The notes under the pieces are model-generated. The model saw only the letters and a program-made list of their open reading frames with translations, was not told where the DNA came from and ran no database searches. From assembly GCA_021372475.1 (NCBI GenBank), contig JAJFUJ010000173.1, positions 1 through 32,341 on the forward strand: DNA of 32,341 nucleotides. Reading direction: 5' to 3'. Within the stretch, counting starts at the first letter, position 1. Every line of letters starts with the position of its first letter. Source of the DNA: Chloroflexota bacterium. Its GTDB lineage: Bacteria; Chloroflexota; Anaerolineae; UBA1429. Below, in pieces: positions 9,338 to 32,341 of the stretch. The position numbers were made by a program, and so were the translations under genes.

Positions 9338-9841
9338 TTACAGCGCTAGGATCCCTTTCTCTAGCAAAATATCAACTGCCCGCTCATATTCCGAGGCTTG
9401 CAGGATGGGAATATCTGGAAAGAGTCCCGCCGGCGCGAGCGCCAAGTCGCGGTATACTGCTGCCAATAGCAATTCCGGGGGAGTCTCCGGCAGGCCTTCA
9501 ATCAGTATCTCAAACCTCGGCAAGTTCAGCTTTCGGTAACCTTCCACAATGATCAGGTCGATGTTGGCCGGCACCATAGCGGCCAATTCCCAAAACGTTG
9601 GCTCAGGCGGCTGTGGTAGGAGCACTGCGCTTCCCTGGCGGCCGGCAATGGCAACAAAACTGCTGCCAGCCTGCGCAAAGTGAAAGGTATCCGTGCCTTC
9701 CCGGTCCATCTGGATGGCTTCGCTGGTATGCTTGATCGTCGCTACGCGGATGCCGCGCGCTCGCAGAACGCGAATCAAGCCAACGATAAAAGTCGTCTTG
9801 CCTGTACGGTGCCACCCGACCGCGCCGATAATCGGGATCAT
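9338..9841 (-). CDS. mobB: Molybdopterin-guanine dinucleotide biosynthesis protein B
   Basis: 167 aa. P-loop NTPase with Walker A GWHRTGKTT at 9-17, followed by VATIKHTS, the MDREGTDTFHFAQAGS block and VEGYRKLNLPRFEI, all MobB hallmarks. MobB assists attachment of GMP to molybdopterin for Mo/W enzymes; it is accessory to MobA, which is not in the window. Its ATG overlaps the stop of the upstream MFS transporter gene (ATGA at 9838-9841), so it is the last gene of the minus-strand operon that begins near 15.2 kb. It converges with the phosphosugar transferase gene. No clear terminator is seen between the two. Confidence 0.9.
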   Translation of the reverse strand: MIPIIGAVGWHRTGKTTFIVGLIRVLRARGIRVATIKHTSEAIQMDREGTDTFHFAQAGSSFVAIAGRQGSAVLLPQPPEPTFWELAAMVPANIDLIIVEGYRKLNLPRFEILIEGLPETPPELLLAAVYRDLALAPAGLFPDIPILQASEYERAVDILLEKGILAL

Positions 9842-11133
9842 TGCACTGCCTTATTGACGCTAGTTTCCGTTTGCCCGGCTTCCTCAGGGGGTTTGATGGT
9901 CACAAACATTCGGTAAAGGGTGAGATCGTATATAATTTTGAGCCCACCCCCGATCAAGAACGGTACTCCCATCAAGAGCGGATTGGCGATGAGCATGCCG
10001 GCCAGCGTGGGTGAAATGGAAGCGCCAATCGAGCGTGCGATGCTGGTGACGCCCGCTGCGGCCGAACGTTCGTCAGGATCCACTACGGCCATGGTATAAG
10101 ATTGGCGCGTCGGCACATCCATCTGGGAGATAGAGAAGCGCAGCAGCAGCACGATGATCGCCAGTGGAAGGCTGGGCATCAACGGTACCAGCATCAGCAG
10201 GATGTTGGATGGTAAATGGGTAAAGACCATCGTCTTGATCAGACCGATTTTGTCTGCCACCCACGAGGCCGAAAGCGCCGAAATCCCTGCCAGCAGGTTT
10301 GCCCAGAAAAAGATGTTTCCCAGCATCGCCGAATCGGCATGCCATCTGGCAGCAAACCAAAGTATCATGATGCTTTGACCGACAAATCCTCCGCCGAAGG
10401 CATCGATACTGAACAGCCCGGCCAGGCGAAAGACTACCGCCTTGCTCTTGTGCAGGCCAAACATCGGCTTCTTGACCTGCTGTACCCCCGAGTCCTGGGT
10501 TTTTACCTCCACCTGAGGTGAAACAAACAAAAACAGGATAGCCAACACCAATCCCATGGCTGCATAGGCGAAAATAACTACACGATAACTTGCCCAATCG
10601 CTCCATCCAGCGCGCTGCAGAGCGTTTGCCAGGTTGCCCCCTGCCAGTGCGCCCAGTGCTGTGGCGAAGGAGCCTGCCAGGTTGTACCAGGCAAATACCT
10701 GTGTGCGTGACGAGGCTGGAATCACGTCGGTGAGGGATGCCTGTTCCAGGGATAGAAAAGGGCCAATCTCGTTGCCGTTTGGGCTTACAATGCCGATAAA
10801 TGCTGCGATGATGAGCAGGATAGGATTCCTGGTGAAAGCGAAGACGAGCCCGGCCAGGATCATCAAGCCGGCCCCCGCTAGCAGCATCCGCCGCCGCCCG
10901 AGTCTATCCGCGGTTGTGCTGATGAACAGGGTCACCAGCACATCGCCAAGCAGCGTGAAGGAAATCAGCCGGCCGACTTCCTGCTTGGTAAAGCCGCCGG
11001 AAACAAGATACAGCGCCAGGACAACCGACATCGAGCCGTAGGCAAATAAGCGGATTATCCGGGTTGCAAACAGGATATGCCCGTCTCTTGGCAGGCTTGG
11101 CAATTTCTTCTTCAGGATACTCTCACTTGACAT
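9838..11133 (-). CDS. MFS transporter
   Basis: 431 aa with about 12 hydrophobic segments. The loop-2 MFS signature appears as TTADRLGRRRML, and a related ADKIGLIKT repeat occurs in the second half. GPFLSLEQASLTDVIPASSRTQVFAWYNLAGS is a conserved feature of an MFS branch common in environmental bacteria. Acts in the cytoplasmic membrane; substrate unknown. Its start overlaps the end of the beta-propeller gene by 11 nt and its stop overlaps mobB by 4 nt, so translation is probably coupled. Position in a glycosidase operon suggests sugar or oligosaccharide movement, an inference only. Confidence 0.88.
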   Translation of the reverse strand: MSSESILKKKLPSLPRDGHILFATRIIRLFAYGSMSVVLALYLVSGGFTKQEVGRLISFTLLGDVLVTLFISTTADRLGRRRMLLAGAGLMILAGLVFAFTRNPILLIIAAFIGIVSPNGNEIGPFLSLEQASLTDVIPASSRTQVFAWYNLAGSFATALGALAGGNLANALQRAGWSDWASYRVVIFAYAAMGLVLAILFLFVSPQVEVKTQDSGVQQVKKPMFGLHKSKAVVFRLAGLFSIDAFGGGFVGQSIMILWFAARWHADSAMLGNIFFWANLLAGISALSASWVADKIGLIKTMVFTHLPSNILLMLVPLMPSLPLAIIVLLLRFSISQMDVPTRQSYTMAVVDPDERSAAAGVTSIARSIGASISPTLAGMLIANPLLMGVPFLIGGGLKIIYDLTLYRMFVTIKPPEEAGQTETSVNKAVQ

Positions 11134-12262
11134 CCCTGCGCCTCAAGTTTGTTGTAGAGTCGGGTTCAGGAATTGTGACATCCACCTGATGGAGGTCGGT
11201 GCCATTTCCCTCAAAAATAAGCCTGAATGTCTGAGCTACGACAGTCAGGTTCCCAGTCGTGTTGCTGTTGCACATTGTCCAATACGGATACGAAAGGTCC
11301 TGGCGCGCAGGGGCAAGAGGGATCGGGTAACTAAAATGTACTGGATCCTGGCTGAAGGCGATCTGGCAGGCCCCCTGGCCAGATCGCCAGAGTTTGCCAT
11401 TATAGCTGGAAAGCAGGTATTGGTTCAGATAAGTGCTGTACACTACGCAAGGTTCACAGGCATCGAGGCACACTGGCGATTCCTGCCCCAGATTGCCCGG
11501 CTCGCTAAAGCTGCCGTTGTAGTATTTGCGCCAACTGCCCGGCAGCCCGTTGCTGGACATCGGCGCGCGGGCTGCGTAAATGTTGGTCCCGACGCCCGCG
11601 CAGCTTTTGGTAAAATAGATATACAGATGCTTGTCCTGGTCATTCACAAAGAGGGTCATGTCTCCCGCACCCAGACAGAACTTGTCCGGATCCTGCCCCC
11701 CGCTCATTCCCTCGACCTGAAAGGCCGTCGTCCAGCACGGCTCCGGCGAGGAGATGATCCAACCGCCGAAATCCCAACTGCGCCCATAGTCGTGTGATAT
11801 CATCAGCCCCAGGTGGCGGAAATCCGGCTCACCTTCCTGGTAGCCGTGGGCGGTGTAGGAGGTCGCCCCGGCGCCCCAGCCGGTCTCGTTGTGGATGTAA
11901 CAGTAAAAGGTATCGTCGCTGGTATCGATCCACAGGCCCATCGCCCACAGCCCGCCGCGCGAGCGCACACCTTCGGGATAAGAGATGCCGTTAAAGGCAA
12001 AGCCCGCTTCGCCCAGTTCAAAGTTGAACCTAACATGCCCGATTTTGTGCAAGTCATCGATCGAGGCACCGCTCCACAACGTGACCCCGCCCGCGCGGGT
12101 ATGCCCGAATAATGCCCACAGCCGACCCTGGCTGTCCCTGCCCAGCGGAATCATCGAATCATGGCACACGCCGTTAGCATTCGTCCAGGGTGTCTCACGG
12201 GATGGGCTGATTACCCAACCTTGTTCCACTAGCGGAATATTCTGCGTAAAACTCTTGGCCAT
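11123..12262 (-). CDS. Putative beta-propeller protein (glycosidase/sialidase-like fold)
   Basis: 379 aa without a signal peptide. Repeated strand-rich units such as LGRDSQGRLWALFGHT, YCYIHNETGWGAGA and QYLLSSYNGKLWRS suggest a five- or six-bladed propeller. An Asp-box, SHDYGRSW at 156-163, is typical of sialidase-like and BNR-repeat propellers. It is rich in Trp, Tyr and Gly and holds many Cys. I do not recognise a characterised family. A carbohydrate-active or carbohydrate-binding role is inferred from the fold and from neighbouring putative glycosidase, transporter and URO-D genes. AAGGAG precedes the ATG; 14 nt separate it from the URO-D-like gene. Confidence 0.6.
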   Translation of the reverse strand: MAKSFTQNIPLVEQGWVISPSRETPWTNANGVCHDSMIPLGRDSQGRLWALFGHTRAGGVTLWSGASIDDLHKIGHVRFNFELGEAGFAFNGISYPEGVRSRGGLWAMGLWIDTSDDTFYCYIHNETGWGAGATSYTAHGYQEGEPDFRHLGLMISHDYGRSWDFGGWIISSPEPCWTTAFQVEGMSGGQDPDKFCLGAGDMTLFVNDQDKHLYIYFTKSCAGVGTNIYAARAPMSSNGLPGSWRKYYNGSFSEPGNLGQESPVCLDACEPCVVYSTYLNQYLLSSYNGKLWRSGQGACQIAFSQDPVHFSYPIPLAPARQDLSYPYWTMCNSNTTGNLTVVAQTFRLIFEGNGTDLHQVDVTIPEPDSTTNLRRRDVK

Positions 12263-12276
12263 CTGATACTCCTTGT

Positions 12277-13503
12277 TCAGGAACGAACGAGTTCACTGGC
12301 AATCGACGTCCACGCGCTAAAGCGTTCCGGATGCTGTTCGCAGGTGTGCGTGTCCTTGAGGATTATTTCCAGCGTGCAGCCGTTCGCTCGTGCGGCAGCG
12401 ATTGTTTGACTGATATACTCCTTAACCATCCCTGCGTCAAACGACCCGACAAGGTGTGCTGGATGCGGTTTCCATGAGAATATCGCCCGATTGCTGAGCT
12501 GCTCCGCGCAGCGCCTGACATCCGCGAACGGTGAAATAGAGATGCGCCGAATATGCGGTATGGTTAATACTTCCGGCAGTTTTTCGGTCAGGTTCTCGCA
12601 GCAGCCGTAACCGGTCAAGCCGAAGGGCTCAAGCAGGCGCTTTTCGTAGGCCAGGATAAACTCGCTGTGCATCGCTGGCGAGACCTGCGCCATCTCCTGC
12701 GCCTCGGCTGAGGCCCACATATCGCGGGGACGCACAGTCCCGCTATAATCCGCCGCTGGCAACTCCTCAGTATAGCCGACACCGCCTGACGAATGGTACG
12801 TGCCGTCGTTGTTCAGGCTCAACAGGTTTAGATCGATATACTGCTGCACCAGCCTGCGGCTGCCTTCTTCAAGGATGCCCATCGCGTGGTGAAGCATCCC
12901 AGGATTGTCGTACATATCCCACATAACCTGGTCGAGGCCGCGCAATTGGCAGTACAAGCTCATTAGGTGAAACGAAATATGCGCCACGCCGCGCAACTGC
13001 ACGTCGAGGATATCGCCGTATAGTTCCTGTGCTGACGCTAGGTTTTGCCTGGTTTGGTCTGCGTCGTATACGACCTGCGGATACACCAGCTTATCCAGGT
13101 CGGCTTCGTTATGGATGACCGGCTTGAAACCCCAGGCGCCGGTGGCCTGGCTGGTCGGCTGGTGCTCGGGTTCAAGCCCCCAGCCGCTAATGTGCACGAC
13201 TTTTGGCACAATCCACAGGGGCTCGACCACTGTGTCATCGTAGATGTGCTCGTGCGCGTAAATGCGCGCGCGCAAAGCCCATTCCTCCGCGCGCGCAGCA
13301 GCATCCATGCAGGAGCAGTCAGCCTCGGGCAGCAGCTCACGCCAGGAACCCTCCGGGAAAACGAGCACCAGCGGCCGCTCAGGCTGCAGTTGGTTATGGC
13401 GCACCCACCTCTTGCGGCGGTCCGCCATTAGCGGCAGTTCGGCGATCTCCCTGGTGCGCTGTGCGAGGCTACGGAGAATAGCTCGATCGTGATCGTTATA
13501 CAT
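12277..13503 (-). CDS. URO-D (uroporphyrinogen decarboxylase)-like protein, probable methyltransferase-type
   Basis: 408 aa, longer than HemE (about 350 aa) and lacking its N-terminal substrate motifs. The C-terminal half matches the URO-D superfamily that includes corrinoid-dependent methyltransferases (MtaA/CmuA type): GYGCCENLTEKLP (298-310), IRRISISPFADV (318-329), FSWKPHPAHLVG (342-353) and ILKDTHTCEQHPERF (381-395). Cys301, Cys302, His386 and Cys388 are candidate metal ligands. Genes of this branch often lie among sugar catabolic genes, and a role in removing methyl groups from substrates has been suggested for the superfamily; no function is proven here. GAGGA precedes the ATG. Second gene of the minus-strand operon. 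Confidence 0.75.
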   Translation of the reverse strand: MYNDHDRAILRSLAQRTREIAELPLMADRRKRWVRHNQLQPERPLVLVFPEGSWRELLPEADCSCMDAAARAEEWALRARIYAHEHIYDDTVVEPLWIVPKVVHISGWGLEPEHQPTSQATGAWGFKPVIHNEADLDKLVYPQVVYDADQTRQNLASAQELYGDILDVQLRGVAHISFHLMSLYCQLRGLDQVMWDMYDNPGMLHHAMGILEEGSRRLVQQYIDLNLLSLNNDGTYHSSGGVGYTEELPAADYSGTVRPRDMWASAEAQEMAQVSPAMHSEFILAYEKRLLEPFGLTGYGCCENLTEKLPEVLTIPHIRRISISPFADVRRCAEQLSNRAIFSWKPHPAHLVGSFDAGMVKEYISQTIAAARANGCTLEIILKDTHTCEQHPERFSAWTSIASELVRS

Positions 13504-13577
13504 TTAGTTCCTCTAACTAATAAAATGTAGGTCCCTGAGCTATATGTTGTGTACTCACTAGGCGCTTTCGCTGGCCA

Positions 13578-15230
13578 CTAAATCCAATCCTGGCGCCAAG
13601 TATGGGCGCGCTCCAATACCAACCTGACGCGAGCATCATCCAGCGGATTGCCTTTGCCGGTAAAGTGCCCCGGACCGAGAGTGGGCATCACCTCGAGGGC
13701 GCGGTACACCTCGATGCCCAGTTCCATATCCTCGTCGTTGGGGTGCAGGTGGTAGTAACCCAACAACTGCGTATGTCCGCGCCACAGATAGGAGCAAATC
13801 GGCACCGAGATGGCGGCATGCTCGGGCATCAATCCACCGACGTGCGGCGTGTCATAAATATGCGCCTGCGCAAAACACTCACGCTGGAAGCTGATCTCGT
13901 TGCAGCCCTCGCCGGCCAGTACGATATCGGGTTGCACAGCGCTGAACTCTTCCTGCAGCCAGCGCAGTCCTTCAATGGTGCTCATATTCTCCACCAGGCC
14001 GTTATCCGTGTTCCAGGTACATAATGTCTGGTCGATAAAGGCAGCCTGCGCCTGCAGGCTGGCGCAGGTGCGCCGCAAGGTATCAATCAGGGTCCGTCGC
14101 CACAGCCCCAGGCCAGGGTGGATGTAGCCCATGCGCGTATAGTCATGGGTATCGGGAGGCCAGTACCAGCCCTGCGGCTCGTTGCGCATGGCTGAGCGAA
14201 TCTGCCAATCGCGGAGCTGAATGTACAACGGATGGTCGTTGTAGCACGAGAAATAATTGAAATGGGGCATCACGTGATAGCCCAGCGCCTGCGCCTTGGC
14301 CATGAAAGCGCGCGCCTCGCCGGTGGGGTAATAGTCGGGATAATCGACGTCATAGGCGCTCGTGCGCCAGCTTGCCAGGTGAATCAGCACCTCGCGCGGC
14401 GGATACACCTCCGCCAAACGATCGAGCAGCGCCGTATCTGTATCCGCCCACATGATGTTGAGCGAAACCTCGTTCACCCAGGCCGGTCGTGCGGCGCGCT
14501 TATCGGCCAGGTCGTAGGTTTTAGCCAGCCAATTGCGGTAGCGTGCTGCCGGCACCTGCCAGTTGCCTGGATACACATTGACGCGCCACTCGGTGCCACC
14601 GGCCGTGCGGTTATCCCACAACGGACCGACCTGCTCGCTTTCAAAACCCAGCGTGGTGTACTCGGCATCGTGACCGAGTTTGAGCGCCTTGAACTTGAAG
14701 GCGGTATCCTGCGCGTGAATCATCAGCGCGCTGCGCCCGCGCTCGGCGATGGCCAGTTGGGCGTTCCAGGTAAACGGCCAGGCGAAACGATTGCTGCGCG
14801 GCGCCTGGTATGCCTTGCTGACGCGCAGCCCGTTGACGCAAGGCAGCACCAGGCTGGCCTCGGCATCGAAGGCCACGTTCCAGCGGATTGAAGCCACACC
14901 GCGGCGGGCGCTTTGGCCGCTGGGTATAACGCGCATATCCCCGTTGGCCGGGTCGAGGCAAATCAGCAGCTCGCGGATGGAATCGGCGCCCAGCAGGATG
15001 ATGCGCGCTGCCAGGGAGGAAAGCAGGCGTACTTCTACCTGCTGGTGCTTGTCGGCAGCCAGTGAATCCTCATGGACGTAATATAGCTCCAGCGGGTAAC
15101 TGCTACCCGGCCGGCAGAACTCGCTGCCGTCCTGCTTGGCCACGACACTCACCAGTGTGGCGCCATCCCATCTGGCGGTATAATTGGGGGCGTCGATGAA
15201 CAAGCTGTTATGTTGCTGCCGAATCTCCAT
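13578..15230 (-). CDS. DUF6259-type putative glycoside hydrolase
   Basis: 550 aa, no signal peptide. Residues 1-235 are beta-rich, like an N-terminal sugar-hydrolase beta-sandwich. From about 245 a TIM barrel is suggested by VSLNIMWADTD, EVLIHLASWRTSAYDVDYPDYYP, GYHVMPHFNYFS, AAFIDQTLCTWNTDNG (Asp400) and VLAGEGCNE (Glu441, Glu445), spaced like the catalytic strands of retaining alpha-glycosidases. The closest family I recall is DUF6259. Substrate unknown; a cytoplasmic location would mean it acts on imported oligosaccharide. First gene of the minus-strand operon, with AAAGGAG before the ATG and a promoter and palindrome upstream. Confidence 0.65.
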   Translation of the reverse strand: MEIRQQHNSLFIDAPNYTARWDGATLVSVVAKQDGSEFCRPGSSYPLELYYVHEDSLAADKHQQVEVRLLSSLAARIILLGADSIRELLICLDPANGDMRVIPSGQSARRGVASIRWNVAFDAEASLVLPCVNGLRVSKAYQAPRSNRFAWPFTWNAQLAIAERGRSALMIHAQDTAFKFKALKLGHDAEYTTLGFESEQVGPLWDNRTAGGTEWRVNVYPGNWQVPAARYRNWLAKTYDLADKRAARPAWVNEVSLNIMWADTDTALLDRLAEVYPPREVLIHLASWRTSAYDVDYPDYYPTGEARAFMAKAQALGYHVMPHFNYFSCYNDHPLYIQLRDWQIRSAMRNEPQGWYWPPDTHDYTRMGYIHPGLGLWRRTLIDTLRRTCASLQAQAAFIDQTLCTWNTDNGLVENMSTIEGLRWLQEEFSAVQPDIVLAGEGCNEISFQRECFAQAHIYDTPHVGGLMPEHAAISVPICSYLWRGHTQLLGYYHLHPNDEDMELGIEVYRALEVMPTLGPGHFTGKGNPLDDARVRLVLERAHTWRQDWI

Positions 15231-15258
15231 ATTGCTCCTTTCAAACGTGTCTTACCTC

Positions 15259-15287
15259 AGTATAACCTCGCGCCGCGCCTCTGTACA
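15259..15287 (-). promoter_or_regulatory. Probable promoter of the DUF6259-mobB operon
   Basis: On the minus strand: TGTACA (15282-15287), a 17-nt spacer and TATACT (15259-15264), about 30 nt upstream of the DUF6259 start. The -35 hexamer is the core of the palindrome at 15274-15295. Confidence 0.5.
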
Positions 15288-15295
15288 GACGCGCG
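15274..15295. promoter_or_regulatory. 22-bp palindrome, candidate operator between divergent genes
   Basis: The core TCTGTACAGA (15280-15289) is a perfect palindrome; CGCGC and GCGCG arms extend it on both sides with one mismatched pair, giving 20 of 22 symmetric positions. It overlaps the -35 of the minus-strand operon and lies about 13 bp from the -35 candidate of the divergent oxidoreductase gene, as expected for a dimeric regulator controlling both. No regulator gene is adjacent. Confidence 0.5.
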
Positions 15296-15307
15296 AACGG
15301 ATGACAA

Positions 15308-15335
15308 CTGACCTTGAGTGGGTGTACACTATATT
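15308..15335 (+). promoter_or_regulatory. Possible promoter of the Gfo/Idh/MocA gene
   Basis: CTGACC (15308-15313), a 16-nt spacer and TATATT (15330-15335), about 28 nt upstream of the ATG at 15363. Confidence 0.4.
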
Positions 15336-15362
15336 CATCCAAGGATAGCGAGGAGCAAGGAT

Positions 15363-16379
15363 ATGACTCTACGCATCGCCATAGCAGGCTTCCGACATGG
15401 TCATATTATGGATCTATACCGCCGTGCGGCTGAACACCCTGCCCTGCAGCTTGTGGCTGCCTGCGAGGAAGATGAGGCTACCCGCGCCCAGTTGGCAGCG
15501 CAGGGGCAGGTCAAAATTACGCACAGCAATTACCTGACGATGCTGCGCGAGGCGCCTTGTGATGCCGTGGCTATCGGCGATTACTTTGCCAGGCGCGGCG
15601 CGCTGGCAATCGCCGCACTGGAGCACGGCAAGCACGTCATCAGCGACAAACCGCTGGCTACCAGCCTGGCTGAGGTAGAGCGCATCACCGAGTTGGCGGC
15701 CGCCAACCGGCTGTGCGTCGGCTGTATGCTCGATTTGCGCGATAACGGCCTGTATATCCGCACGCGCGAGCTGGTGCGCCAGGGCATCATTGGCGAGGTC
15801 AAGGCAATCTCTTTCAACGGGCAGCATCCGCTGCTGTTCGGCTCGCGTGCGGGCTGGTATTTCGAACCCGGCAAACACGGCGGCACGCTAAACGACATCG
15901 GCATCCATGCTTTTGATGCGCTCCCCTGGATCACCGGGCTGCAATTTACCCAGATAAACGCAGCGCGCTGCTGGGTGGCGCATCCTGAGCTGTGCGGCAC
16001 CTTTGCCTCGGCCGGCCAGGTGATGCTGACGCTCGAAAACGGCTGCGGGGTGCTGGGCGATGTCTCTTATCTAACCCCGGATAGCTTTGCTTACCGCAAC
16101 CCGCAGTATTGGCGCATGACCATCTGGGGGTCCCAAGGGGTGCTGGAGACGGCGCTTAATGAGAAAGCGATTCACCTGGCGGTCAACGGCGAGGGCGAGA
16201 TGCGCTGCGAACAGCCTGCCCCCAACCGCCCGGGCGGCTACCTGGAGGCTTTCCTGCACGATATCGAGGGCTCGAGTGCCGCCGGCGAGTTGGATACCTG
16301 CCAGGTGCTGCGCGCGGCCAGCGTGGCGCTGCAGGTGCAGGCGGCCGCGGATGATACGAAAACTACGCTAATCGTTTAG
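15363..16379 (+). CDS. Gfo/Idh/MocA-family NAD(P)-dependent oxidoreductase
   Basis: 338 aa from the ATG at 15363, preceded by GAGGAGCAAGG; an upstream in-frame ATG at 15318 falls inside the promoter region. The N-terminal Rossmann part has IAIAGFRHGHI (5-15), a known GxxxGH variant of the nucleotide-binding loop, and SDKPLA (94-99), equivalent to the EKP motif with the catalytic Lys. The C-terminal domain has GGTLNDIGIHAFDAL (173-187) with the active-site Asp/His pair. Family members oxidise or reduce sugars, inositols and their derivatives. Divergent from the glycosidase operon, which suggests action on a released or modified sugar. Substrate not predictable. Confidence 0.88.
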   Translation: MTLRIAIAGFRHGHIMDLYRRAAEHPALQLVAACEEDEATRAQLAAQGQVKITHSNYLTMLREAPCDAVAIGDYFARRGALAIAALEHGKHVISDKPLATSLAEVERITELAAANRLCVGCMLDLRDNGLYIRTRELVRQGIIGEVKAISFNGQHPLLFGSRAGWYFEPGKHGGTLNDIGIHAFDALPWITGLQFTQINAARCWVAHPELCGTFASAGQVMLTLENGCGVLGDVSYLTPDSFAYRNPQYWRMTIWGSQGVLETALNEKAIHLAVNGEGEMRCEQPAPNRPGGYLEAFLHDIEGSSAAGELDTCQVLRAASVALQVQAAADDTKTTLIV

Positions 16380-17622: not shown

Positions 17623-20028
17623 CTATATCTGCGTGATAATCCAGCTTTGCTCCAGGGTAAACTTGGCTCCGGCCGGCAGCGCCCGCGGGTTGGCATTGAG
17701 TGCTAAGCTCAAACCGCGGTCCATCCGGGAGCCGTTACACGAGACGGCAGCAATCGGTTGGTTAGCAAATACCTGCGTGAGTTGAACCTTACCAAGCTGC
17801 GCTGTCCATTCGCCCTCGGCGATGTCGGCATATTGCATTTCGTGAGGATGACCGGGCTCCGGGATGGCAAGCTGTACCGTTTCGCCCGCTGTGCTCCGGT
17901 AGAGAACACTTGGCTCAACGCCATCCGGCCAGGTGAGCTCGATAACGCTGCGCAGCGCGATATGTTGCACCTCGGCAGTCGTGTTCGCCAACTCTGTTTT
18001 GATATCCAGGCGATCGCCTTGCAGCGAAAGGCAGCGCTTAACGGCTACGCCGTTTTTGAGCATCACCTCAAGGATGATACTGGCAGGTGTTTGGGCGTTC
18101 CCTTTGTTGAGGGTGCCCTGATATGCCTCGCGTGCGCCCATGCCGCGGTCTTCGATGCCGACGTATTCGGCAAAACCACCGCCTGCTGGGTAACTCCATT
18201 CGGCGGCCGTAACCTCGCGCAGCAGGTTTTGCCCGCTGGCTTTATCCAGCAGACGCACGATACGCCCGCCCAGGGCGGGAACCACGTCCACTCGCACCTG
18301 CTCGTTCGCCAGGCTCAGCACCGGGTATTCGCTCTGGTCGGTGACGCGCTGGAAAAAGCGCCACTTGGGCTGACCCTCGCGGATCTGCCCAACCCCATAT
18401 TGGTTCACCTTGGTCTCCAAAGTGGAGAGCAGCTTGGCATCCACTCCCTGGGTGCGCTTGTAGGTGCTGCCGACCACCTGATGGCGGGGCAGCGCGCGCA
18501 TCAGGAGCACATAGTCGAGCGCCAGGCGGGCGCGTTGGACCATTTCGAGCGTCAAGGTATTATCGGCAACTGCTTGTTCAGCCGCATCAAAGATACGCTG
18601 TCCTTTAGCCAAAACATCATCGGCAAGATACGGCGCCGTAGGGGTATCCCAGATGCGCAGGTGCCAGTTCTGCTTGCGCAGCACATCGTGAATTAGGTCG
18701 AGCCACTCCTTGATATACGGTGCAGCCTTACCGTACACGCCTTGCAGGAAATCGGCGATAATCGGTTCGGCTGGACGGTCGGTATGCCACATCAGCTTGG
18801 CCATCAGATACGCTTCCAGCTCGCTCTGTGCGCACATCCCACCCGGGGCATAGCCGCCTTCATAAAACAGGCCGACCGCGCCGTATTTCTTGAAAATAGG
18901 GATGTCGCCGATAACCTCATCCAGGTTGGGGAATGGCTGCAAATAGTGCGCAAAGTTAGTCGAATAGTGCCAGACATAGAGTTGATTGGTGATCGCCCCC
19001 CACGCCTTTAGGTTGTTGAAGGCCTCTATGTTGGCTGCGCAGCCGTCCAGCGGGTGACTGAAGCAAGCATAGATGGGCGCCAGGCGAATGCGTACATTGG
19101 GGCGTGGCCTAACATATTTAGGCGTGCTCTCCGTCCATTGGTAGGCCAGCGTGTCAATCAGAATATGCGGGTATTCGGCCGCGATGGCATCCGCGATGGC
19201 ATTGACAAAGCGCAGCACCAGGCCTGAAGCAGCCCCTTCCTCTTCTTCAACGGCGCGGCACTTGTCGCATTGGCAGTTGAAATATACATCGTTCTGAGAA
19301 ACAGAGATGATAGTAGCGTGCGGATTCTCTTTGATCCACCCGCGCACGCTCTCGATGCTGATACGCAGGACATCTGGATTGGTCAGGCAAAGCTGGTAAT
19401 ACCCCTTCATGCGCTTGCCATCGATTAACGAAAAGTATTCGGGATGGGCGTCATAGTACTTGTCGGGCGAAACCAGGTCATTGAAGGTGTGCACGAACAG
19501 GCGCCCGTAGGAGACGTTGCCGCCCACCGATTCATCGAGCAACTGATGGTGGCCGTTGGTGCGGTTGCGCACTGCCCAATCCTTTGCGAACGCCTCGGTA
19601 TAGAACGGCTCTCGGTATTCGAAATCAGGCTTGTCATGCACATCCAGCGGGTCGACCGTCAGCGTGCGCTTCTTGGGCACATAGGTGATGCGCGAGGTAT
19701 ACCAGCGTACCCCCAGGATATCCTCGAGCAAGGCATAGCAGCCGTAAAGCACGCCGCGTTTACCGCCGCCCGAGATGGTCAGCCTTTGGCCGCTTGTTTT
19801 GAGGGTGAATTCCTCCTCGCCCAGGCTGGCGGTGGGTTCCAGGCAGATCGCCAGATCGGTTTCAGGCACCGTTTCCTGGATTGGCAGGATCGCACCGGAC
19901 ATCATGGCCAGGTGCTGCTGCAGCTCATCCGCGCCGTGCTTCACAGGTGCGGCTGCGTCGGCCGGAATGACGATCGCGTATCTGCCTTGGCCATTGTGTA
20001 CGAGTGTCAGTTTACCAGTAGTTGCCAT
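17623..20028 (-). CDS. DUF4838-containing protein, putative carbohydrate-active enzyme
   Basis: 801 aa, no signal peptide. Residues about 10-125 resemble the alpha-glucuronidase N-terminal domain (IVIPADAAAPVKHGADELQ, RGVLYGCYALLEDILGVRWY). The central DUF4838 domain runs about 140-470 and includes HPEYFSLIDGKR, the C-x-C-x-x-C cluster CQCDKC (252-257) that may bind a metal, TLAYQWTE and GLFYEGGYAPGGMCAQSELEAYLMAKLMW. The C-terminal third is beta-rich and may bind carbohydrate. Characterised functions are lacking; a glycosidase-type fold is the family prediction. AAAGGA lies before the ATG. It is 112 nt downstream of the alpha/beta hydrolase gene on the same strand and may be cotranscribed with it. 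Confidence 0.75.
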   Translation of the reverse strand: MATTGKLTLVHNGQGRYAIVIPADAAAPVKHGADELQQHLAMMSGAILPIQETVPETDLAICLEPTASLGEEEFTLKTSGQRLTISGGGKRGVLYGCYALLEDILGVRWYTSRITYVPKKRTLTVDPLDVHDKPDFEYREPFYTEAFAKDWAVRNRTNGHHQLLDESVGGNVSYGRLFVHTFNDLVSPDKYYDAHPEYFSLIDGKRMKGYYQLCLTNPDVLRISIESVRGWIKENPHATIISVSQNDVYFNCQCDKCRAVEEEEGAASGLVLRFVNAIADAIAAEYPHILIDTLAYQWTESTPKYVRPRPNVRIRLAPIYACFSHPLDGCAANIEAFNNLKAWGAITNQLYVWHYSTNFAHYLQPFPNLDEVIGDIPIFKKYGAVGLFYEGGYAPGGMCAQSELEAYLMAKLMWHTDRPAEPIIADFLQGVYGKAAPYIKEWLDLIHDVLRKQNWHLRIWDTPTAPYLADDVLAKGQRIFDAAEQAVADNTLTLEMVQRARLALDYVLLMRALPRHQVVGSTYKRTQGVDAKLLSTLETKVNQYGVGQIREGQPKWRFFQRVTDQSEYPVLSLANEQVRVDVVPALGGRIVRLLDKASGQNLLREVTAAEWSYPAGGGFAEYVGIEDRGMGAREAYQGTLNKGNAQTPASIILEVMLKNGVAVKRCLSLQGDRLDIKTELANTTAEVQHIALRSVIELTWPDGVEPSVLYRSTAGETVQLAIPEPGHPHEMQYADIAEGEWTAQLGKVQLTQVFANQPIAAVSCNGSRMDRGLSLALNANPRALPAGAKFTLEQSWIITQI

Positions 20029-20140
20029 AGCACATTCCTTTCGCTAAAGTAGAGCGAGTATGAACGAAAACGAGTTAATTATCAACCCAATCCCAGATAA
20101 TGGCCGCGATTTCTGCAAATCGTTCATCCTGCCTTATCCA

Positions 20141-20998
20141 TCATCTCTCGCAACACTTGAGCGTCCGGTAGAAAAAGGCATCGACCAGGCAATTTACCTC
20201 CGGCGTCTGCCAGGGGATATCCGTCGTACGACGGTCGTAGCTGAGATGATCCCCTCCTCGTACGACGTACAGTTCCACATCGGCGCCGGCTTGCCAGAGC
20301 GCCTCATACAATAAAACGCTCTGATTCAGCAGGACGGTGGTATCCTTGTCACCGTGCATAATCAGCATTGGGGCGGCGTCTTTATGCGCATAGGTAATGG
20401 GGCTGGCGGCGCGCAGTTTGTCCATGTGCTGCGCCGGCGGGCAGCCCAAGAAGCGCGTCCAGAAGCCGGATTCATCCTGCCACGTCGGTTCGGAGGACGA
20501 GAGCCCCACTCCAAGCCGTGTAAAATCGGACACACCGTACCAATCGCAAACGGCCTGCACCGCACTGGATACTCCCGGCGTTCCAGAATCGCCCTCGAAT
20601 TCGCTGATGCCGGCGGTCAAGCCAAGCATGGCCGCCAGATGCCCGCCCGCCGAATCGCCCCATGTGGCAATATGCCCGCCGTCATAGTGATACTCGTCAG
20701 CGTGCGCGCGCAGCCAGCGCACGGCAGCTTTGCAATCGTGCAGGCAGGCTGGGAATGGCGCCTGTTGAATCAAGCGGTAGTTAATGCTAGCTACCGCATA
20801 CTCCTGCTCAAGCAGGCGCATCGGGTATGGGCACCAGCCTTTATCCAGCCCAGACCAGCCGCCCCCATGGATATAAATGATTAATGGAACGCGGCGGATG
20901 GGACGGTTGGGCAGGTATAGATCAAGCGTGAGTTCACAGCCCCCGCCGCGCCCGAAAACGATATCGCTGTGCAGAGTATATCCGCTGTGCATTGCCAC
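20141..20998 (-). CDS. Alpha/beta hydrolase, esterase of the hormone-sensitive-lipase-like type
   Basis: 285 aa, cytoplasmic. The oxyanion-hole motif HGGGW (44-48) and nucleophile elbow GDSAGG with Ser116 are typical of the BD-FAE/HSL-like esterases. The acid is probably Asp217 or Asp219 in MHGDKDTTV, and the base His251 in GGDHLSY. Such enzymes remove acetyl or other acyl groups from sugars and small esters. Placement before the DUF4838 gene suggests deacylation of a carbohydrate, an inference. GGGAG precedes the ATG, and a promoter with a perfect TTGACA lies upstream, next to the second MITE-like element. Confidence 0.85.
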   Translation of the reverse strand: MAMHSGYTLHSDIVFGRGGGCELTLDLYLPNRPIRRVPLIIYIHGGGWSGLDKGWCPYPMRLLEQEYAVASINYRLIQQAPFPACLHDCKAAVRWLRAHADEYHYDGGHIATWGDSAGGHLAAMLGLTAGISEFEGDSGTPGVSSAVQAVCDWYGVSDFTRLGVGLSSSEPTWQDESGFWTRFLGCPPAQHMDKLRAASPITYAHKDAAPMLIMHGDKDTTVLLNQSVLLYEALWQAGADVELYVVRGGDHLSYDRRTTDIPWQTPEVNCLVDAFFYRTLKCCER

Positions 20999-21518: not shown

Positions 21519-22121
21519 TTATGCCGTTTTGATTTTGCGCGGTCGCCTTTTGAGGACGAATATCACGATAACGGATAATCCGAGCAGCCCAATCCCTATA
21601 CGCGCCGGCATTTCCTGAAGGTTCATGCCCAGCAGCGCGGCATGTACCGAAGCTATGAGAAAGGCGAGGTAAACCAGCCAGTGCAGCATGCGCCAACTGC
21701 CCTTCAGTTTAGCGCGCAGCAAAGCAAACAGCGAAGCTGCCCCAAATAACAGCAAAGCCACTGGCCCGCTTCTGGCAAAAAAGGCATAGCCTGAGGTGAA
21801 ATCGGGTAAAAGGTAATACGGCGGATATCCACCTAGCACGACAAAGAGGGGATGCAACGCCATCGCTGCCAGGGCTGTGACGGTGATGATATGGTGGATA
21901 GCAATAAACCTACGCCCGAATAAGTGCACGAGCTCTTGAATGAAAAGTGCACTGAGTATGCTAGCTAAGGCAAGCAGATACGCCGTAAAACCCAGAATAC
22001 GCATCGGCGCAAGGGATTCGCGGGGCTCTCCCGTGATAACCAGCAGAATAGCAGCAAGGGCAACCACCGCACAGCCGATAATAACAAAGAGATAGGAATT
22101 CCGTGCTCGCAGCTTGTTCAT
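21519..22121 (-). CDS. Ferric-reductase-like transmembrane protein
   Basis: 200 aa with about six membrane segments. The order and spacing of histidines fit the ferric reductase-like (YedZ/MsrQ/NOX-type) b-haem domain: HH in RFIAIHHIITVTALAAMALHP, and later WRMLHWLVYLAFLIASVHAALLG. It would carry electrons across the membrane through haem b. No FAD/NAD domain or molybdenum partner subunit (YedY/MsrP) is adjacent, so the electron donor and acceptor are unknown. A very strong AGGAGGAGG lies before the ATG. It is divergent from the GNAT gene. Confidence 0.78.
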   Translation of the reverse strand: MNKLRARNSYLFVIIGCAVVALAAILLVITGEPRESLAPMRILGFTAYLLALASILSALFIQELVHLFGRRFIAIHHIITVTALAAMALHPLFVVLGGYPPYYLLPDFTSGYAFFARSGPVALLLFGAASLFALLRAKLKGSWRMLHWLVYLAFLIASVHAALLGMNLQEMPARIGIGLLGLSVIVIFVLKRRPRKIKTA

Positions 22122-25159: not shown

Positions 25160-26311
<1,152 letters not shown>

Positions 26312-27574
26312 TTGGATACATCGATGCATCATCCATCTGCTGGACAAACGCTCTCGGAACTCATCCTTTCGCACGCTGCTGGGCAGCAGGTGCATGCGGG
26401 CGATCTGGTAATTGTGCCGGTTGACCGCTGCATGACCCACGATTCGCTCACGCCCGAGATCATCGATGCCCTGGAGAAAAATCTCGGCGTCAACCGTATT
26501 TACGACCCTGAGCGGGTGGCCGTGGTGATGGACCATGTGGCGCCTGCCGCATCCGTCCAGACGGCCAACGCCCAAGTGCGCACGCGACGCTGGGTCGCTC
26601 AACAAGGTATCCGCCATTTTTATGATGTGGGCGCGGGTGTGTGCCACCAGGTGCTGATTGAGGAACGCCTCGTCTTGCCCGGTCAGGTGGCGATCGGCTC
26701 TGACTCGCACGCCACCTCTTACGGTGCAATCGGCGCTTTTGGCACTGGGATGGGCACGGGCGACCTGGCGCTGATCCTGGCCAGCGGCCGCACCTGGCTG
26801 CGCGTGCCCGAGACGATTCGTGTGCAGGTCGTGGGGCGCTTTCGCAAGAATGTCAGCCCCAAGGATATCAGCCTGTATCTGTGCGGGATGCTGGGTCTGG
26901 ATGGCGCAACCTATCAGGCGGTCGAGTTCCACGGCGTCGACTGGCTCTCGCTGGATGGGCGTGAGGTGCTGGCCGGCATGAGCACCGAAATCGGCGCCAA
27001 AGTGGGCATCGTCCCGCCCAGCGGCGAGATTGCTTCACGTTATAACGTTCCAGAGTGGTTGCGGGTGCAGCCCGGCGCGCATTATGTGCGCACTATCGAG
27101 GTTGACTTGAACACGCTGGGCTCGCAGGTGGCGGTGCCGCCCGAGGTGGACCACATCGCACCGGCGAGCGAGCTGGGGGACGTTAAGGTCGATCAGGTAT
27201 TCGTCGGCACCTGCACCAATGGCCGCCTGGAGGACCTGCATATCCTGGCGGAGCTGCTGAAGGGGCACAAGTTGGCGGCGGGCGTGCGTCTGCTGGTCAT
27301 CCCCGCCTCGCACCGTATCCTGCAGGCCGCCGCCGAGGATGGCACGCTGAGCATTTTGCTTGCGGCCGGCGCTACCCTGGGCACACCCGGCTGCGGACCC
27401 TGCATCGGGCGCCATATGGGCGTCATCGGTGCCGACGAGGTTTGCCTTTCCACCGCCAACCGCAACTTCCGCGGGCGGATGGGCGATCCAAACGCGCGCA
27501 TCTATCTTGCCTCGCCCGAGGTGGCCGCCGCGACGGCGCTGCGCGGTTCTATCAGCGACCCAGCTAACCTGTGA
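26312..27574 (+). CDS. lysT: Homoaconitase large subunit
   Basis: 420 aa. With the small subunit it isomerises homocitrate to homoisocitrate through homoaconitate. The 4Fe-4S ligands are Cys301 (GTCTNGR), Cys361 and Cys364 (GCGPCIGRH), and the SDSHATSYGAIGAFGTGMGTGD block is the usual aconitase-family motif. It belongs to the LeuC/LysT type with separate subunits; assignment to lysine rests on the operon. The start is a TTG directly after the lysS stop, with GGAGGTG 5 nt upstream; the first ATG in frame, at 26324, is too far from that site. Confidence 0.92.
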   Translation: MDTSMHHPSAGQTLSELILSHAAGQQVHAGDLVIVPVDRCMTHDSLTPEIIDALEKNLGVNRIYDPERVAVVMDHVAPAASVQTANAQVRTRRWVAQQGIRHFYDVGAGVCHQVLIEERLVLPGQVAIGSDSHATSYGAIGAFGTGMGTGDLALILASGRTWLRVPETIRVQVVGRFRKNVSPKDISLYLCGMLGLDGATYQAVEFHGVDWLSLDGREVLAGMSTEIGAKVGIVPPSGEIASRYNVPEWLRVQPGAHYVRTIEVDLNTLGSQVAVPPEVDHIAPASELGDVKVDQVFVGTCTNGRLEDLHILAELLKGHKLAAGVRLLVIPASHRILQAAAEDGTLSILLAAGATLGTPGCGPCIGRHMGVIGADEVCLSTANRNFRGRMGDPNARIYLASPEVAAATALRGSISDPANL

Positions 27575-27594
27575 TCACCTATAAGGAGCTGCCT

Positions 27595-28095
27595 GTGGCC
27601 CGTGTATGGTTATTTCCAGCTAATATTGATACCGACCAGATTGTGCCCGGCCGTTATGCGCCGTATATGACCTCCGAAGCGGAGCTGGGCAAATATCCTT
27701 TTATCGAATATCGCCCTGAGTTTGCAAAAACAGTGCAACCCGGCGACCTGATTGTGGCGGGCAGCAATTTCGGCTGCGGTTCCTCGCGCGAGTATGCTCC
27801 GCGCGCCTTGGTCGCCGTTGGCATTGCCGCCATCATCGCCCCGAGTTTCAGCCGTATCTTTTTCCGCAATGCCCTGAACCTCGGCCTGCCCTTGTTTGAA
27901 TGCGACCTGCAGGGTATCCTGAGCGATGGGCAGCAGGTTACCTACGACAATACAAGCTATATTATCACCACGTCGGAAGGCGCGGTTACCTCCCTGCCCC
28001 AGCCGCCGGCTTGGCTGCAGGAAACCTGGGCAGAGGGTGGCATCGTGCAGTATTACCGCCGTCACGGCCGCTTGCCGGTGGGGGCAAACCGATGA
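27595..28095 (+). CDS. lysU: Homoaconitase small subunit
   Basis: 166 aa from the GTG at 27595, which has AAGGAG 6 nt upstream and gives the usual family N-terminus, MARVWLFPANIDTDQIVPGRY. A GTG at 27571 overlapping the lysT stop is a weaker alternative adding eight residues. GSNFGCGSSREYAP is the conserved swivel-domain motif that binds the substrate carboxylate, and PSFSRIFFRNALNLGLP follows it. Forms the swivelling domain that closes over the LysT cluster. Overlaps the next gene by ATGA (28092-28095). Confidence 0.92.
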   Translation: MARVWLFPANIDTDQIVPGRYAPYMTSEAELGKYPFIEYRPEFAKTVQPGDLIVAGSNFGCGSSREYAPRALVAVGIAAIIAPSFSRIFFRNALNLGLPLFECDLQGILSDGQQVTYDNTSYIITTSEGAVTSLPQPPAWLQETWAEGGIVQYYRRHGRLPVGANR

Positions 28096-29087
28096 GCTAT
28101 CGCATCTGCCTGATTGAAGGGGATGGCATCGGCCGCGAGGTCATCCCGGCCGCGCGTCGGGTACTCGAGGCATTACCGCTTGCGCTAGAGTTTGTAACCG
28201 CCGAGGCCGGCTGGGACTCCTTCCAGCGTACTGGCAGTGCTCTGCCTGAGGCCACCCTGGAGGCAGTGCGCAGTGCACGCGCGACGCTCTTTGGCGCCGT
28301 TTCATCGCCGCTCAACCCGGTTGCCGGCTACCACAGCCCTATCGTGGCGCTGCGCCGCATGTTCAACCTGTTTGCCAATCTGCGGCCGGTGATTTCCCAG
28401 CCGATCGCCACTTCGCGCGCGGGCATCGATATGCTTATCGTACGCGAGAACACCGAGGGACTCTATGCCGGGCGCGAACGGGCTACCGCTGATGAGGCCG
28501 TTACCGAGCGCGTGATTACGCGGCGTGCTTCGGAGCGCATCGTGCGCCTGGCCTGCCAGCAGGCGCTGCAGCGGCGCAAAAAGGTGACCATCGCGCACAA
28601 GGCCAACGTGCTCAAGGCAACCTGTGGCCTGTTCCGCCAGGTTGCCTTTGAGGTCGCGCGCGAATTCCCGGATGTACAAGCCGAGGAAGCGCTGGTCGAT
28701 TCGCTGGCGATGCGCCTGATTACGGAGCCTGAGCGGTTCGATATTATCGTTACCACCAACCTGTTCGGCGATATCCTCTCGGATGAGGCTGCCGGCTTGG
28801 TGGGCGGGCTTGGCCTGGCGCCTTCTGCCAATATCGGCCTCGAACAGGCCGTCTTTGAGCCGGTGCACGGTTCGGCGCCAGATATCGCCGGCAAAGGTAT
28901 CGCTAATCCCTTGGCGGCCGTGCTGGCAGCCGCGTTGCTGCTACAGCATTTGAACGAACCGGCGTCTGCGGCCAAAATAAGGGATGGGGTGGATTCTGTC
29001 ATCCGCGCAGGCTGCGTGACGCCTGATCTGGGCGGTACAGCGACCACCGCTAAAGTCACTAATGCTGTCATCGAGCGTATCAGGTAA
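28092..29087 (+). CDS. hicdh: Homoisocitrate dehydrogenase (isopropylmalate/isocitrate dehydrogenase family)
   Basis: 331 aa. NAD-dependent oxidative decarboxylation of homoisocitrate to 2-oxoadipate. IEGDGIGREVIPAARRVL opens the fold. LRRMFNLFANLRP, VRENTEGLYAGRE, TIAHKANVLKATCGLF and FDIIVTTNLFGDILSDEAAGLVGGLGLAPSANIG carry the Arg, Tyr, Lys and Asp residues of the decarboxylating dehydrogenases. The family also includes LeuB and isocitrate dehydrogenase; the choice rests on position between lysU and lysX, and relaxed specificity is possible. The start overlaps the lysU stop, and longer upstream extensions in the same frame lie inside lysU. Confidence 0.9.
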   Translation: MSYRICLIEGDGIGREVIPAARRVLEALPLALEFVTAEAGWDSFQRTGSALPEATLEAVRSARATLFGAVSSPLNPVAGYHSPIVALRRMFNLFANLRPVISQPIATSRAGIDMLIVRENTEGLYAGRERATADEAVTERVITRRASERIVRLACQQALQRRKKVTIAHKANVLKATCGLFRQVAFEVAREFPDVQAEEALVDSLAMRLITEPERFDIIVTTNLFGDILSDEAAGLVGGLGLAPSANIGLEQAVFEPVHGSAPDIAGKGIANPLAAVLAAALLLQHLNEPASAAKIRDGVDSVIRAGCVTPDLGGTATTAKVTNAVIERIR

Positions 29088-29120
29088 TAGAACAATCATT
29101 ATCAGTTAGCGGAGGAATAT

Positions 29121-29975
29121 ATGCGCGTTGGGATGCTGATGTCGCGCGTTCGCGTTGAGGAAAAGCTGCTCATCGACGCCTTTGCAGCGCGGCAGGTGGA
29201 GGTTGACCTGCTCGACGATCGCGAGCTCATTTTTGATATCGGCGATTCGTCGCCCTTTCGCCAATACGACGTCATCATCGAGCGCTGCATCAACCACTCG
29301 CGGGCTGTCAGCGCCCTGGAAATGCTCAACTCCTGGGGTATCCGCACCGTGAACACGTATGAGGTTGCCAATGTGTGTGGCAGCAAGTTTTCCACCACCC
29401 GCGCGCTCTACGCTCACGGCGTGCCTAGCCCGCGCACCCTGTTGGCCTTCACGCCCGAATCGGCGCTGCAGGCCATCGAGAGCCTCGGTTATCCGGTGGT
29501 GCTCAAACCGGCGGTCGGGTCGTGGGGCCGCTTGTTGGCGCGCATCAACGACCGCGACGCCGCCGAGGCCGTCCTGGAGCACAAGAGTGTGCTCGGTTCC
29601 TACCAACACTCGATATTCTACATCCAGGAATACATCGCCAAACCGCAGCGCGATATCCGTAGCTTTGTGGTCGGCGGCGAAAACATCTGCGCGATCTACC
29701 GCACCTCCGAGCACTGGATTACCAACACCGCCCGCGGCGGCAAGGCGTCCAACTGCCCCATCACCCCCGAGATCGAAAAACTCTCATGCGCGGCCGCCGC
29801 TGCGGTGGGCGGGGGCGTGGTAGCTATCGACCTGCTGGAAAAGCCCGGGGGTGAGCTGGTGGTCAATGAGGTCAACTACACCATGGAGTTCCGCAACAGC
29901 ATCGACACAACCGGCGTGGATATCCCGGCTAAAGTGGTCGATTATGTCCTCAAGGTGGGAAGAGGCGAAGCATGA
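29121..29975 (+). CDS. lysX: LysW--aminoadipate ligase LysX
   Basis: 284 aa, ATP-grasp fold. Joins the amino group of alpha-aminoadipate to the C-terminal carboxylate of LysW. Motifs: [20 protein letters not shown] (77-96), [11 protein letters not shown] (127-137) with the ATP-binding Lys, [18 protein letters not shown] (168-185), NTARGG (202-207) and [12 protein letters not shown] (248-259) with magnesium ligands. The paralogous ArgX uses glutamate; the presence of the aminoadipate genes supports LysX. GGAGGA precedes the ATG. 33 nt separate it from the dehydrogenase gene, the widest complete gap in the operon, and it overlaps lysY by 4 nt. Confidence 0.95.
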
Positions 29976-31039
29976 GCAGAGCGCGCGTCGCGATTATTGG
30001 CGGCTCCGGCTACGCCGGCGGTGAGGTGCTGCGCCTGCTGCTGGCTCATCCACAGGTTGAGGTGACCCAGGTTACCTCGGAGAGCAACGCCGGCAAATAT
30101 GTGCATGCCCTGCATCCCAACCTGCGCAAGCGCACCGACCTGAAATTCGTGCCCGTAGCAGCAGTAGAGCCTTGCGATATTCTTTTCCTTGCCCTGCCTC
30201 ATGGCGAGGCGATGCAGCGCATCGAGCAGTTCGCCGCGCTCGCCCCGCGCATCATCGACCTTTCCGCAGATTTCAGGTTGCGCAACCCTGATGATTATGT
30301 CAAATGGTATGAGCATCCGCATGCCGCGCCGGAGTGGCTGGCGCGTTTTACCTACGGCCTGCCTGAGATCAACCGCACCGGCATCTGCGGAGCCAATTAT
30401 GTCAGCGGCGTGGGCTGCAATGCTACCGCCACCAACCTGGCGCTCTGGCCGCTCTTTCAAGCTGATGTAATCGACCGCAGCCGCGGGATTATTGTCGAGG
30501 TCAAGGCCGGTTCATCGGAGGGCGGCGCGATGGCAGGTCCCTCTTCGCACCATCCCGACCGCAGCCATGCGGTGCGCTCCTACGCGCCGGTGGGGCACCG
30601 CCACACGGCTGAAGTGCTCCAGGCGCTGGCTCGCCCGGGCGACGGGCTGCAGGTGCATATGTCGGTGACCTCCATCGAGCTGGTGCGCGGCGTGCTGGCT
30701 ACGGCCCACGTCTTTATCAAGCCCGAGCTGCTTCAGGACGGTTTTGCGCTCAAGGACCTGTGGAAGGCTTACCGTTCCGCCTATAATAGCGAACCCTTTG
30801 TGCGCATCGTGCGCGAGCAAAAAGGCGTCTATCGTTTTCCCGAACCCAAGATATTAGCCGGCAGCAACTATGCCGATGTGGGCTTTGATTTTGATCCGGA
30901 GACCGGGCGCGTGGTGGCTATTGCTGCCATCGATAACCTGATGAAAGGCGCGGCCGGTAGTGCGGTGCAGTGTATGAACCTGATGTGTGGCTGGGATGAA
31001 ACGACAGCCCTCGGCTTCACGGGGCTGCACCCGGCCTAA
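29972..31039 (+). CDS. lysY: LysW-aminoadipate semialdehyde-forming reductase LysY (ArgC family)
   Basis: 355 aa. NADPH-dependent reduction of LysW-aminoadipyl phosphate to the semialdehyde. GGSGYAGGE (10-18) is the nucleotide loop; the catalytic Cys149 lies in [52 protein letters not shown] contains the His/Arg set of the ArgC family. It could also serve arginine synthesis if the strain lacks another ArgC. Start overlaps the lysX stop as ATGA. Confidence 0.93.
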
Positions 31040-31050
31040 GGAGCAAAGCG

Positions 31051-31869: not shown

Positions 31870-31887
31870 TCTATATATTGGAGAGCG

Positions 31888-32341
31888 ATGGATACGATTA
31901 TCCGCGAGACGCTATACACCAGCGGGGTTTATCCCAAGCGCGATGTCGCGATTGTGCGCGGACTGGGCGCAAGGGTCTGGGATGATGCCGGCCGTATGTA
32001 TATCGACTGTGTTGGCGGGCACGGCGTAGCCATCGTCGGACACTGCCATCCGCGCGTGGCTGAGGCAATCTCCGCACAGGCGCGCACGCTCATCATCTGC
32101 CCCGAGATATTCTACAACGACCAGCGGGCGCTGCTCGAGGAGCGCCTGGTCAGGCTGGCGCCGCAGGGCCTGGAGCGTGTGTTTCTGTGTAACTCGGGCG
32201 CCGAAGCGGTCGAGGCAGCCTTCAAGTTCGCCCGCCTGAGCACCAGCAAACCCGGTATTGTCGCCGCGATGCGCTCGTTCCACGGACGCACGCTGGGCGC
32301 CCTCTCGGCTACCTGGGAGCCGGAATACCGCACTCCGTTCG
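31888..32341 (+). CDS. lysJ: LysW-lysine aminotransferase LysJ (partial, 3' end outside window)
   Basis: The first 151 residues of a class-III PLP aminotransferase, cut by the window end. It transaminates LysW-aminoadipate semialdehyde to LysW-lysine. Seen: YIDCVGGHGVAIVGHCHPRV, NSGAEAVEAAFKFAR (phosphate and cofactor binding) and SFHGRTLGALSAT. The PLP-binding Lys would lie beyond the window. GGAGA precedes the ATG. ArgD-like enzymes share these motifs; the operon supports LysJ. LysK (deacylase) and the aminoadipate transaminase LysN are not seen here. Confidence 0.9.
   Translation, partial: MDTIIRETLYTSGVYPKRDVAIVRGLGARVWDDAGRMYIDCVGGHGVAIVGHCHPRVAEAISAQARTLIICPEIFYNDQRALLEERLVRLAPQGLERVFLCNSGAEAVEAAFKFARLSTSKPGIVAAMRSFHGRTLGALSATWEPEYRTPF

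Follow-up and report, generated by a model that had tools for sequence, protein, structure and literature searches.

The five minus-strand genes described here very probably form a composite locus and not a conserved sugar-degrading operon. They lie in a stretch of 32,341 nucleotides of Chloroflexota DNA, which is referred to as the window. At its core would be three proteins: a URO-D-superfamily enzyme, an Asp-box protein with propeller-like features, and a Gfo/Idh/MocA dehydrogenase, whose gene is divergent from the others. Together they probably make up a small module that works in the cytoplasm on a sugar or on a molecule derived from one. In the source genome, this core appears to have been joined by an upstream gene for a DUF6259 glycosidase-like protein and by an MFS gene unrelated to the core. 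We give about even chances to this explanation as a whole, that is, to the composite locus, the sugar-linked core, and the chemistry proposed below.

Organization of the locus

The features of the locus are listed in Table 1. By the ORF calls, the spacings from the DUF6259 gene through the URO-D-like, propeller, and MFS genes to MobB are 74, 14, -11, and -4 nt, all on the minus strand. This agrees with a reading made previously from the sequence only, which had noted gaps or overlaps of -11 to about 75 nt, and spacings this tight make co-transcription of the five genes plausible. In the region scanned around the divergent intergenic region, five promoter-like sites were found versus 3.0 ± 1.5 expected, all of them consensus matches only.

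Table 1. Coordinates of the features of the locus in the window
Feature	Position	Strand	Basis
DUF6259 glycoside-hydrolase-like protein	13578-15230	minus	PF19773 4.1e-13
URO-D-superfamily enzyme, distinct clade (motif Y-G-C-C-E ... K-D-x-H-T)	12277-13503	minus	fold, profile comparison, invariant residues
Putative Asp-box/DUF4185-like beta-propeller protein, function unassigned	11123-12262	minus	remote relatives; Pfam without credible match
MFS transporter	9838-11133	minus	PF07690 (MFS_1) 1.8e-28
MobB	9338-9841	minus	PF03205 4.9e-30; TIGR00176 above cut-off
Gfo/Idh/MocA-family dehydrogenase	15363-16379	plus, divergent from cluster	PF22725 3.8e-16, PF01408 1e-13
Divergent intergenic region, 132 nt	15231-15362	promoter-like sites, both strands	consensus matches only

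An N-terminal hydrophobic segment is absent from all three soluble proteins (DUF6259, URO-D-like, and propeller), which bears out the earlier view that these likely enzymes have no signal peptide and are cytoplasmic. The families guessed in the sequence-only reading held for the DUF6259 protein, the MFS transporter, and MobB by Pfam and for the URO-D-like protein by its predicted fold; the propeller is merely suggested, by one Asp-box and by remote relatives. PDB sequence searches with single proteins of the locus gave no useful match. The Gfo/Idh/MocA gene had been left out of the sequence-only reading, and it is a steadier neighbor than the MFS or DUF6259 gene. The best NCBIfam match of its product is inositol 2-dehydrogenase, below the cut-off.

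Several other genes in the window were also noted. At 17623-20998, a DUF4838 protein with a GH20/GH67-like N-terminal domain is followed by a BD-FAE/alpha-beta hydrolase; both are present in the nearest relative, G036, and they are a possible glycan-active pair adjoining a Mrp-type Fe-S carrier. The cluster at 25166-32340 encodes homocitrate synthase-like, aconitase (in parts), isocitrate/isopropylmalate-type dehydrogenase, LysX-like ATP-grasp, semialdehyde dehydrogenase, and amino-acid kinase proteins and is probably for LysW-type lysine synthesis. At 22-1311, a 429-aa protein that has no Pfam match and whose start is conserved in G036 adjoins a solute-binding protein.

Conservation of the gene set

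Conservation was examined in 249 genomes of the class, including the source genome (G000), and in 15 genomes of the family. The sequence-only reading had called the five genes an operon and the most plausible undescribed catabolic system in the window, and had proposed a comparison of gene neighborhoods for co-occurrence as the check that could refute it. In this comparison, the five-gene set was found in none of the 248 other genomes of the class, which leaves the claim mostly unsupported. Taken singly in the class search, the DUF6259 protein was found in 11 genomes, with matches over most of its length in only two others (G099 and G235), and the URO-D-like protein was found in 41 of the 249. 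A close homolog of the propeller protein was present in only one other class genome, G036, also when the search was repeated over the 15 family genomes. When 84,980 species genomes were scanned, one close record was obtained, apparently G036 itself, together with two distant relatives; the G036 homolog, with 73% identity, was the only close one in all the collections searched.

G036 belongs to a sister genus; its gene order follows that of the window between the left end and about 24.7 kb, and the identities there are 34-88%. Among the genes tested, only DUF6259, MFS, and a small ORF at 21519-22121 are missing from it, and searches of the rest of the G036 genome gave no DUF6259 and no close MFS. 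The Gfo/Idh/MocA gene is kept there (68% identity), divergent from the URO-D-like gene, which is followed by the propeller gene and then by MobB, the last two overlapping by 4 nt. Thus, the URO-D-like, propeller, and Gfo/Idh genes alone appear to stay together, as known from this one sister-genus genome. Their adjacency is weak evidence because the whole G036 block is collinear anyway and may simply be inherited.

The MFS transporter and MobB

Orthologs of the MFS transporter, mostly with 55-62% identity, were found in 25 other Anaerolineae genomes and in none of its own family. In the 20 ortholog loci that were retrieved, there were no relatives of the URO-D-like, propeller, DUF6259, or MobB proteins. 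The ortholog directly adjoins a chromate-resistance gene in 7 of these 20 loci: ChrA in two and ChrB_C in five, where the gene for the ChrB C-terminal domain is immediately adjacent and on the same strand. Four of the five ChrB_C neighbors were scanned with Pfam, and the fifth clusters with those four. Loci L118-L121, L126, L131, and L133 represent a chromate- or oxyanion-linked MFS family in Anaerolineae. The window transporter is like chromate-resistance loci (ChrA, ChrB) in what its orthologs adjoin but differs in that no Chr gene was seen among the window proteins scanned. Judging by these orthologs, it probably belongs to the exporters associated with chromate or some other oxyanion and is unrelated to the core. 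Since the orthologs adjoin ChrB_C or ChrA and never the partner genes in the 20 loci, sugar import by this protein, and with it the idea that processing occurs after import, is unsupported.

MobB scored 103.6 bits with TIGR00176, against a cut-off of 76.2, and is present as one copy in each of the 15 family genomes. It is mostly convergent to a GT4 gene that comes after uracil phosphoribosyltransferase (UPRT), as in the window, and the genes on its other side vary among the family genomes and are often in opposite orientation. Because the UPRT-GT4-MobB arrangement is family-wide whatever lies upstream, MobB is, by gene order, an old housekeeping neighbor at the end of the transcription unit and outside the proposed module. 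A role for MobB in serving a molybdoenzyme of the pathway was considered and ruled out, since its anchoring is family-wide and G036, in which no PF00384 molybdopterin oxidoreductase was found, has it too.

The URO-D-like enzyme

The AlphaFold2 model of the URO-D-like protein, made from an alignment of 29 relatives, has a pLDDT of 95. All 25 Foldseek matches at E ≤ 0.001 were uroporphyrinogen decarboxylases or the M. mazei methyltransferase, and profile comparison (hhalign) against 50 PF01208 proteins from the source genome gave E-values of 4e-22 and 3e-18. Membership in the UroD superfamily, with a URO-D/MetE-like barrel, was confirmed for the predicted structure. The window protein has no Pfam match at E 0.1, and members of its clade score 11.6-17 bits versus the PF01208 gathering cut-off of 23.9. 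It is like HemE in fold (Foldseek E ~1e-6, TM ~0.5) but differs in its 12-15% identity, in matching no hemE model in NCBIfam, and in the carbohydrate neighborhoods of its clade.

Y299-G300-C301-C302 is invariant in all 29 clade sequences and E303 is present in 28 of them; D384 and T387 are invariant in the same alignment (n=29), and H386 is found in 20 of the 29 sequences, among them the first ten of the alignment. In an alignment with the zinc site of the genome's other URO-D proteins, G300 falls on the His ligand, C302 on the Cys ligand, and H386 on the third ligand. The clade therefore has G300-C301-C302-E303 and H386 instead of the His-Cys-Cys zinc triad of the MtaA/MtbA type. To our knowledge, a Cys/Cys/Glu/His metal site is not a described set, and such a site would be chemically interesting. 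In the UroD superfamily, His-Cys-Cys favors sulfur substrates and carboxylate substitutions favor oxygen (PMC10418091). The window enzyme shares with MtaA/MtbA and the O-demethylases of that superfamily the URO-D fold, a cysteine (C302) at the place of the H-x-C cysteine, and a candidate third ligand (H386). It differs in having Gly for His, an extra invariant Cys, and a near-invariant Glu, in having no PF01208 or relevant NCBIfam match, and in that no corrinoid protein or activase was found in its cluster or elsewhere in the window. A possible action of the enzyme on methyl groups, as suggested earlier, survives but is weakened by the loss of the zinc-site His and by the absence of a corrinoid partner from the locus. 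We consider metal-assisted demethylation doubtful.

Gene neighborhoods were compared for 28 clade members. Their neighbors include GH2 (5), apiosidase (3), xylose-isomerase-like (3), and GH31, sulfatase, and ThuA proteins (2 each), and a second URO-D protein is near 3 of the 28. In a random control, which was small and drawn from the source genome only, none of those carbohydrate families was seen twice or more. Gfo/Idh proteins are not clearly enriched, with 4 of 106 neighbors versus 2 of 49 random proteins. Because the control lacks the carbohydrate families but has Gfo/Idh as often, the carbohydrate link of the clade is supported and, on these counts, its Gfo/Idh link is not. These neighborhoods lead us to lean toward a carbohydrate-linked role for the enzyme. 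This much of the sugar route proposed earlier survives, but not the five-gene system of import and degradation. No corrinoid family was among the commonest neighbors of the clade or of the other URO-D paralogs; the neighbors of the latter include FGGY kinases, MR_MLE proteins, and amidohydrolases.

Many URO-D proteins and few corrinoid proteins

Beyond the window enzyme, PF01208 has 54 matches in the 3.3-Mb source genome and 41 in G036, some of which are possibly two pieces of one gene. The 50 proteins extracted from the source genome have a median pairwise identity of 20%, with no pair above 47%, and their aligned ligand triads are H-C-H (10), D-D-H (10), H-C-C (4), and many others. Example loci are L174-L201 and L214-L233. 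The median number of first-look PF01208 candidates is 43 for class genomes with the window clade and 5 for the others, in a comparison of loose candidates and of genomes that are not independent. There are at least 40 such candidates per genome in 28 sampled class genomes and up to about 107 in related families of the class. We found no description of a URO-D expansion in Anaerolineae in open-access papers, which is not proof of absence.

The source genome has one RACo and two corrinoid-domain (PF02607) proteins, of which one (contig C136) is MtgC/MtbC-like; all three are encoded outside the window. The RACo gene (contig C87, L241) adjoins GAPDH and a gene for a SAM-type methyltransferase that weakly matches CpaM, and no corrinoid protein or URO-D gene was found near it. 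A hub-and-spoke arrangement can be imagined, in which dozens of URO-D enzymes would pass methyls to the single MtgC-like corrinoid protein, kept active by the one RACo. Each enzyme would sit with its own substrate-specific, often carbohydrate, genes, and the G-C-C-E clade would be one new spoke, for a decorated sugar. We regard both the shared hub and this placement of the spokes as quite improbable.

The DUF6259 and propeller proteins

The DUF6259 domain (PF19773) scored 49.6 bits against a cut-off of 28.7. D400, in the strand FIDQT, and E441, in GEG, are invariant in 7 of 7 diverse members in an alignment, and the DUF6259 profile weakly matches alpha-amylase-like TIM barrels over D400/E441 (E 0.0012). 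The two residues are plausible candidates for the carboxylate pair of a retaining glycosidase. Active sites clearly unable to bind sugars, which the sequence-only reading had named as grounds against its proposal, were not seen here, and the D400/E441 site offers no grounds for excluding a sugar. The Pfam score, the weak profile match, and the conserved D and E make DUF6259 similar to GH13-like TIM barrels, but a characterized member was not found and the activity of the window protein is predicted from sequence. Open-access searches yielded no paper on DUF6259. In a genome of an unrelated family (G029), a PF01208-type URO-D gene comes directly after a DUF6259 gene in the same orientation (L083 4523-7513). 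This adjacency could be due to chance, since G029 has about 60 PF01208 candidates.

The propeller protein contains one Asp-box (SHDYGRSW) and has a weak GH33 sialidase profile match; its sole Pfam match is below the cut-off, with an E-value of 0.086. Its remote relatives weakly touch DUF4185/BNR, and one of them matches PF13810 (DUF4185) at E 0.0014, below the cut-off; the window protein itself has no PF13810 match. These similarities suggest a sialidase/DUF4185-like beta-propeller fold. The AlphaFold2 model, made from four sequences, was unusable (pLDDT 34). DUF4185 enzymes are GH183 endo-D-arabinanases with two catalytic aspartates (PMC10115798). The window protein is like these enzymes and the GH33 sialidases in its Asp-box and in a weak profile link via distant relatives, but it has no family match and the GH183 catalytic aspartates could not be placed in it. 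A TGA within the G036 propeller match is best taken for its stop codon, the ORF being open for 379 codons.

Interpretation of the locus

In the chemistry that we propose, the DUF6259 protein would hydrolyze a glycoside by a retaining mechanism, with D400 as nucleophile and E441 as acid/base, and the Gfo/Idh/MocA dehydrogenase would oxidize the sugar. The URO-D-like enzyme would use a Cys-rich metal site at the mouth of its barrel, made up of C302, H386, and either C301 or E303, to activate a substituent of the sugar. Most plausibly, a methyl group or another one-carbon unit would be removed and passed to a corrinoid protein whose gene lies outside the locus.

Alternatively, all five genes could belong to a single operon dedicated to the import and degradation of O-methylated or otherwise decorated sugars, as their tight spacing and overlaps, sugar-linked families, and lack of signal peptides would allow. 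The full set is in no other genome, however, MobB is anchored independently, the MFS orthologs are chromate-linked, and the only other genome with the core, G036, has neither DUF6259 nor MFS. Since the five genes do not co-occur elsewhere, this explanation is largely refuted, and we consider it very unlikely. It is also unlikely, to a lesser degree, that the core is just left over from vertical inheritance, its genes sharing a promoter without being functionally linked. The collinearity of the whole window with G036 and the single close relative of the propeller would fit such a remnant, but in both genomes the URO-D-like and propeller genes overlap or almost do so, and they have been kept together despite gains and losses at their flanks.

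The URO-D-like enzyme may also be a non-corrinoid enzyme (decarboxylase-, lyase-, or alkyl-transfer-like) that acts on sugar acids or keto-sugars, and not a methyltransferase. UROD itself contains no metal (PMC539065), the zinc triad has lost its His in this clade, and the neighborhoods described above, poor in corrinoid families and with kinases and amidohydrolases beside the other paralogs, point the same way. Set against this, the Cys pair and Glu are invariant or nearly so, as expected for a metal or thiol site, and corrinoid machinery is present in the genome. We rate a non-corrinoid enzyme as possible, though on the less probable side.

As an operon, the composite locus is ordinary and mixed. 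It leads, however, to an undescribed URO-D clade with an invariant Cys-Cys(-Glu) site that is tied to carbohydrate loci of Anaerolineae, and to a large expansion of URO-D proteins in genomes with very few corrinoid proteins. If even a few of these URO-D enzymes demethylate natural products or glycans, they would account for the way in which these abundant anaerobes deal with methylated polymers from plants and microbes.
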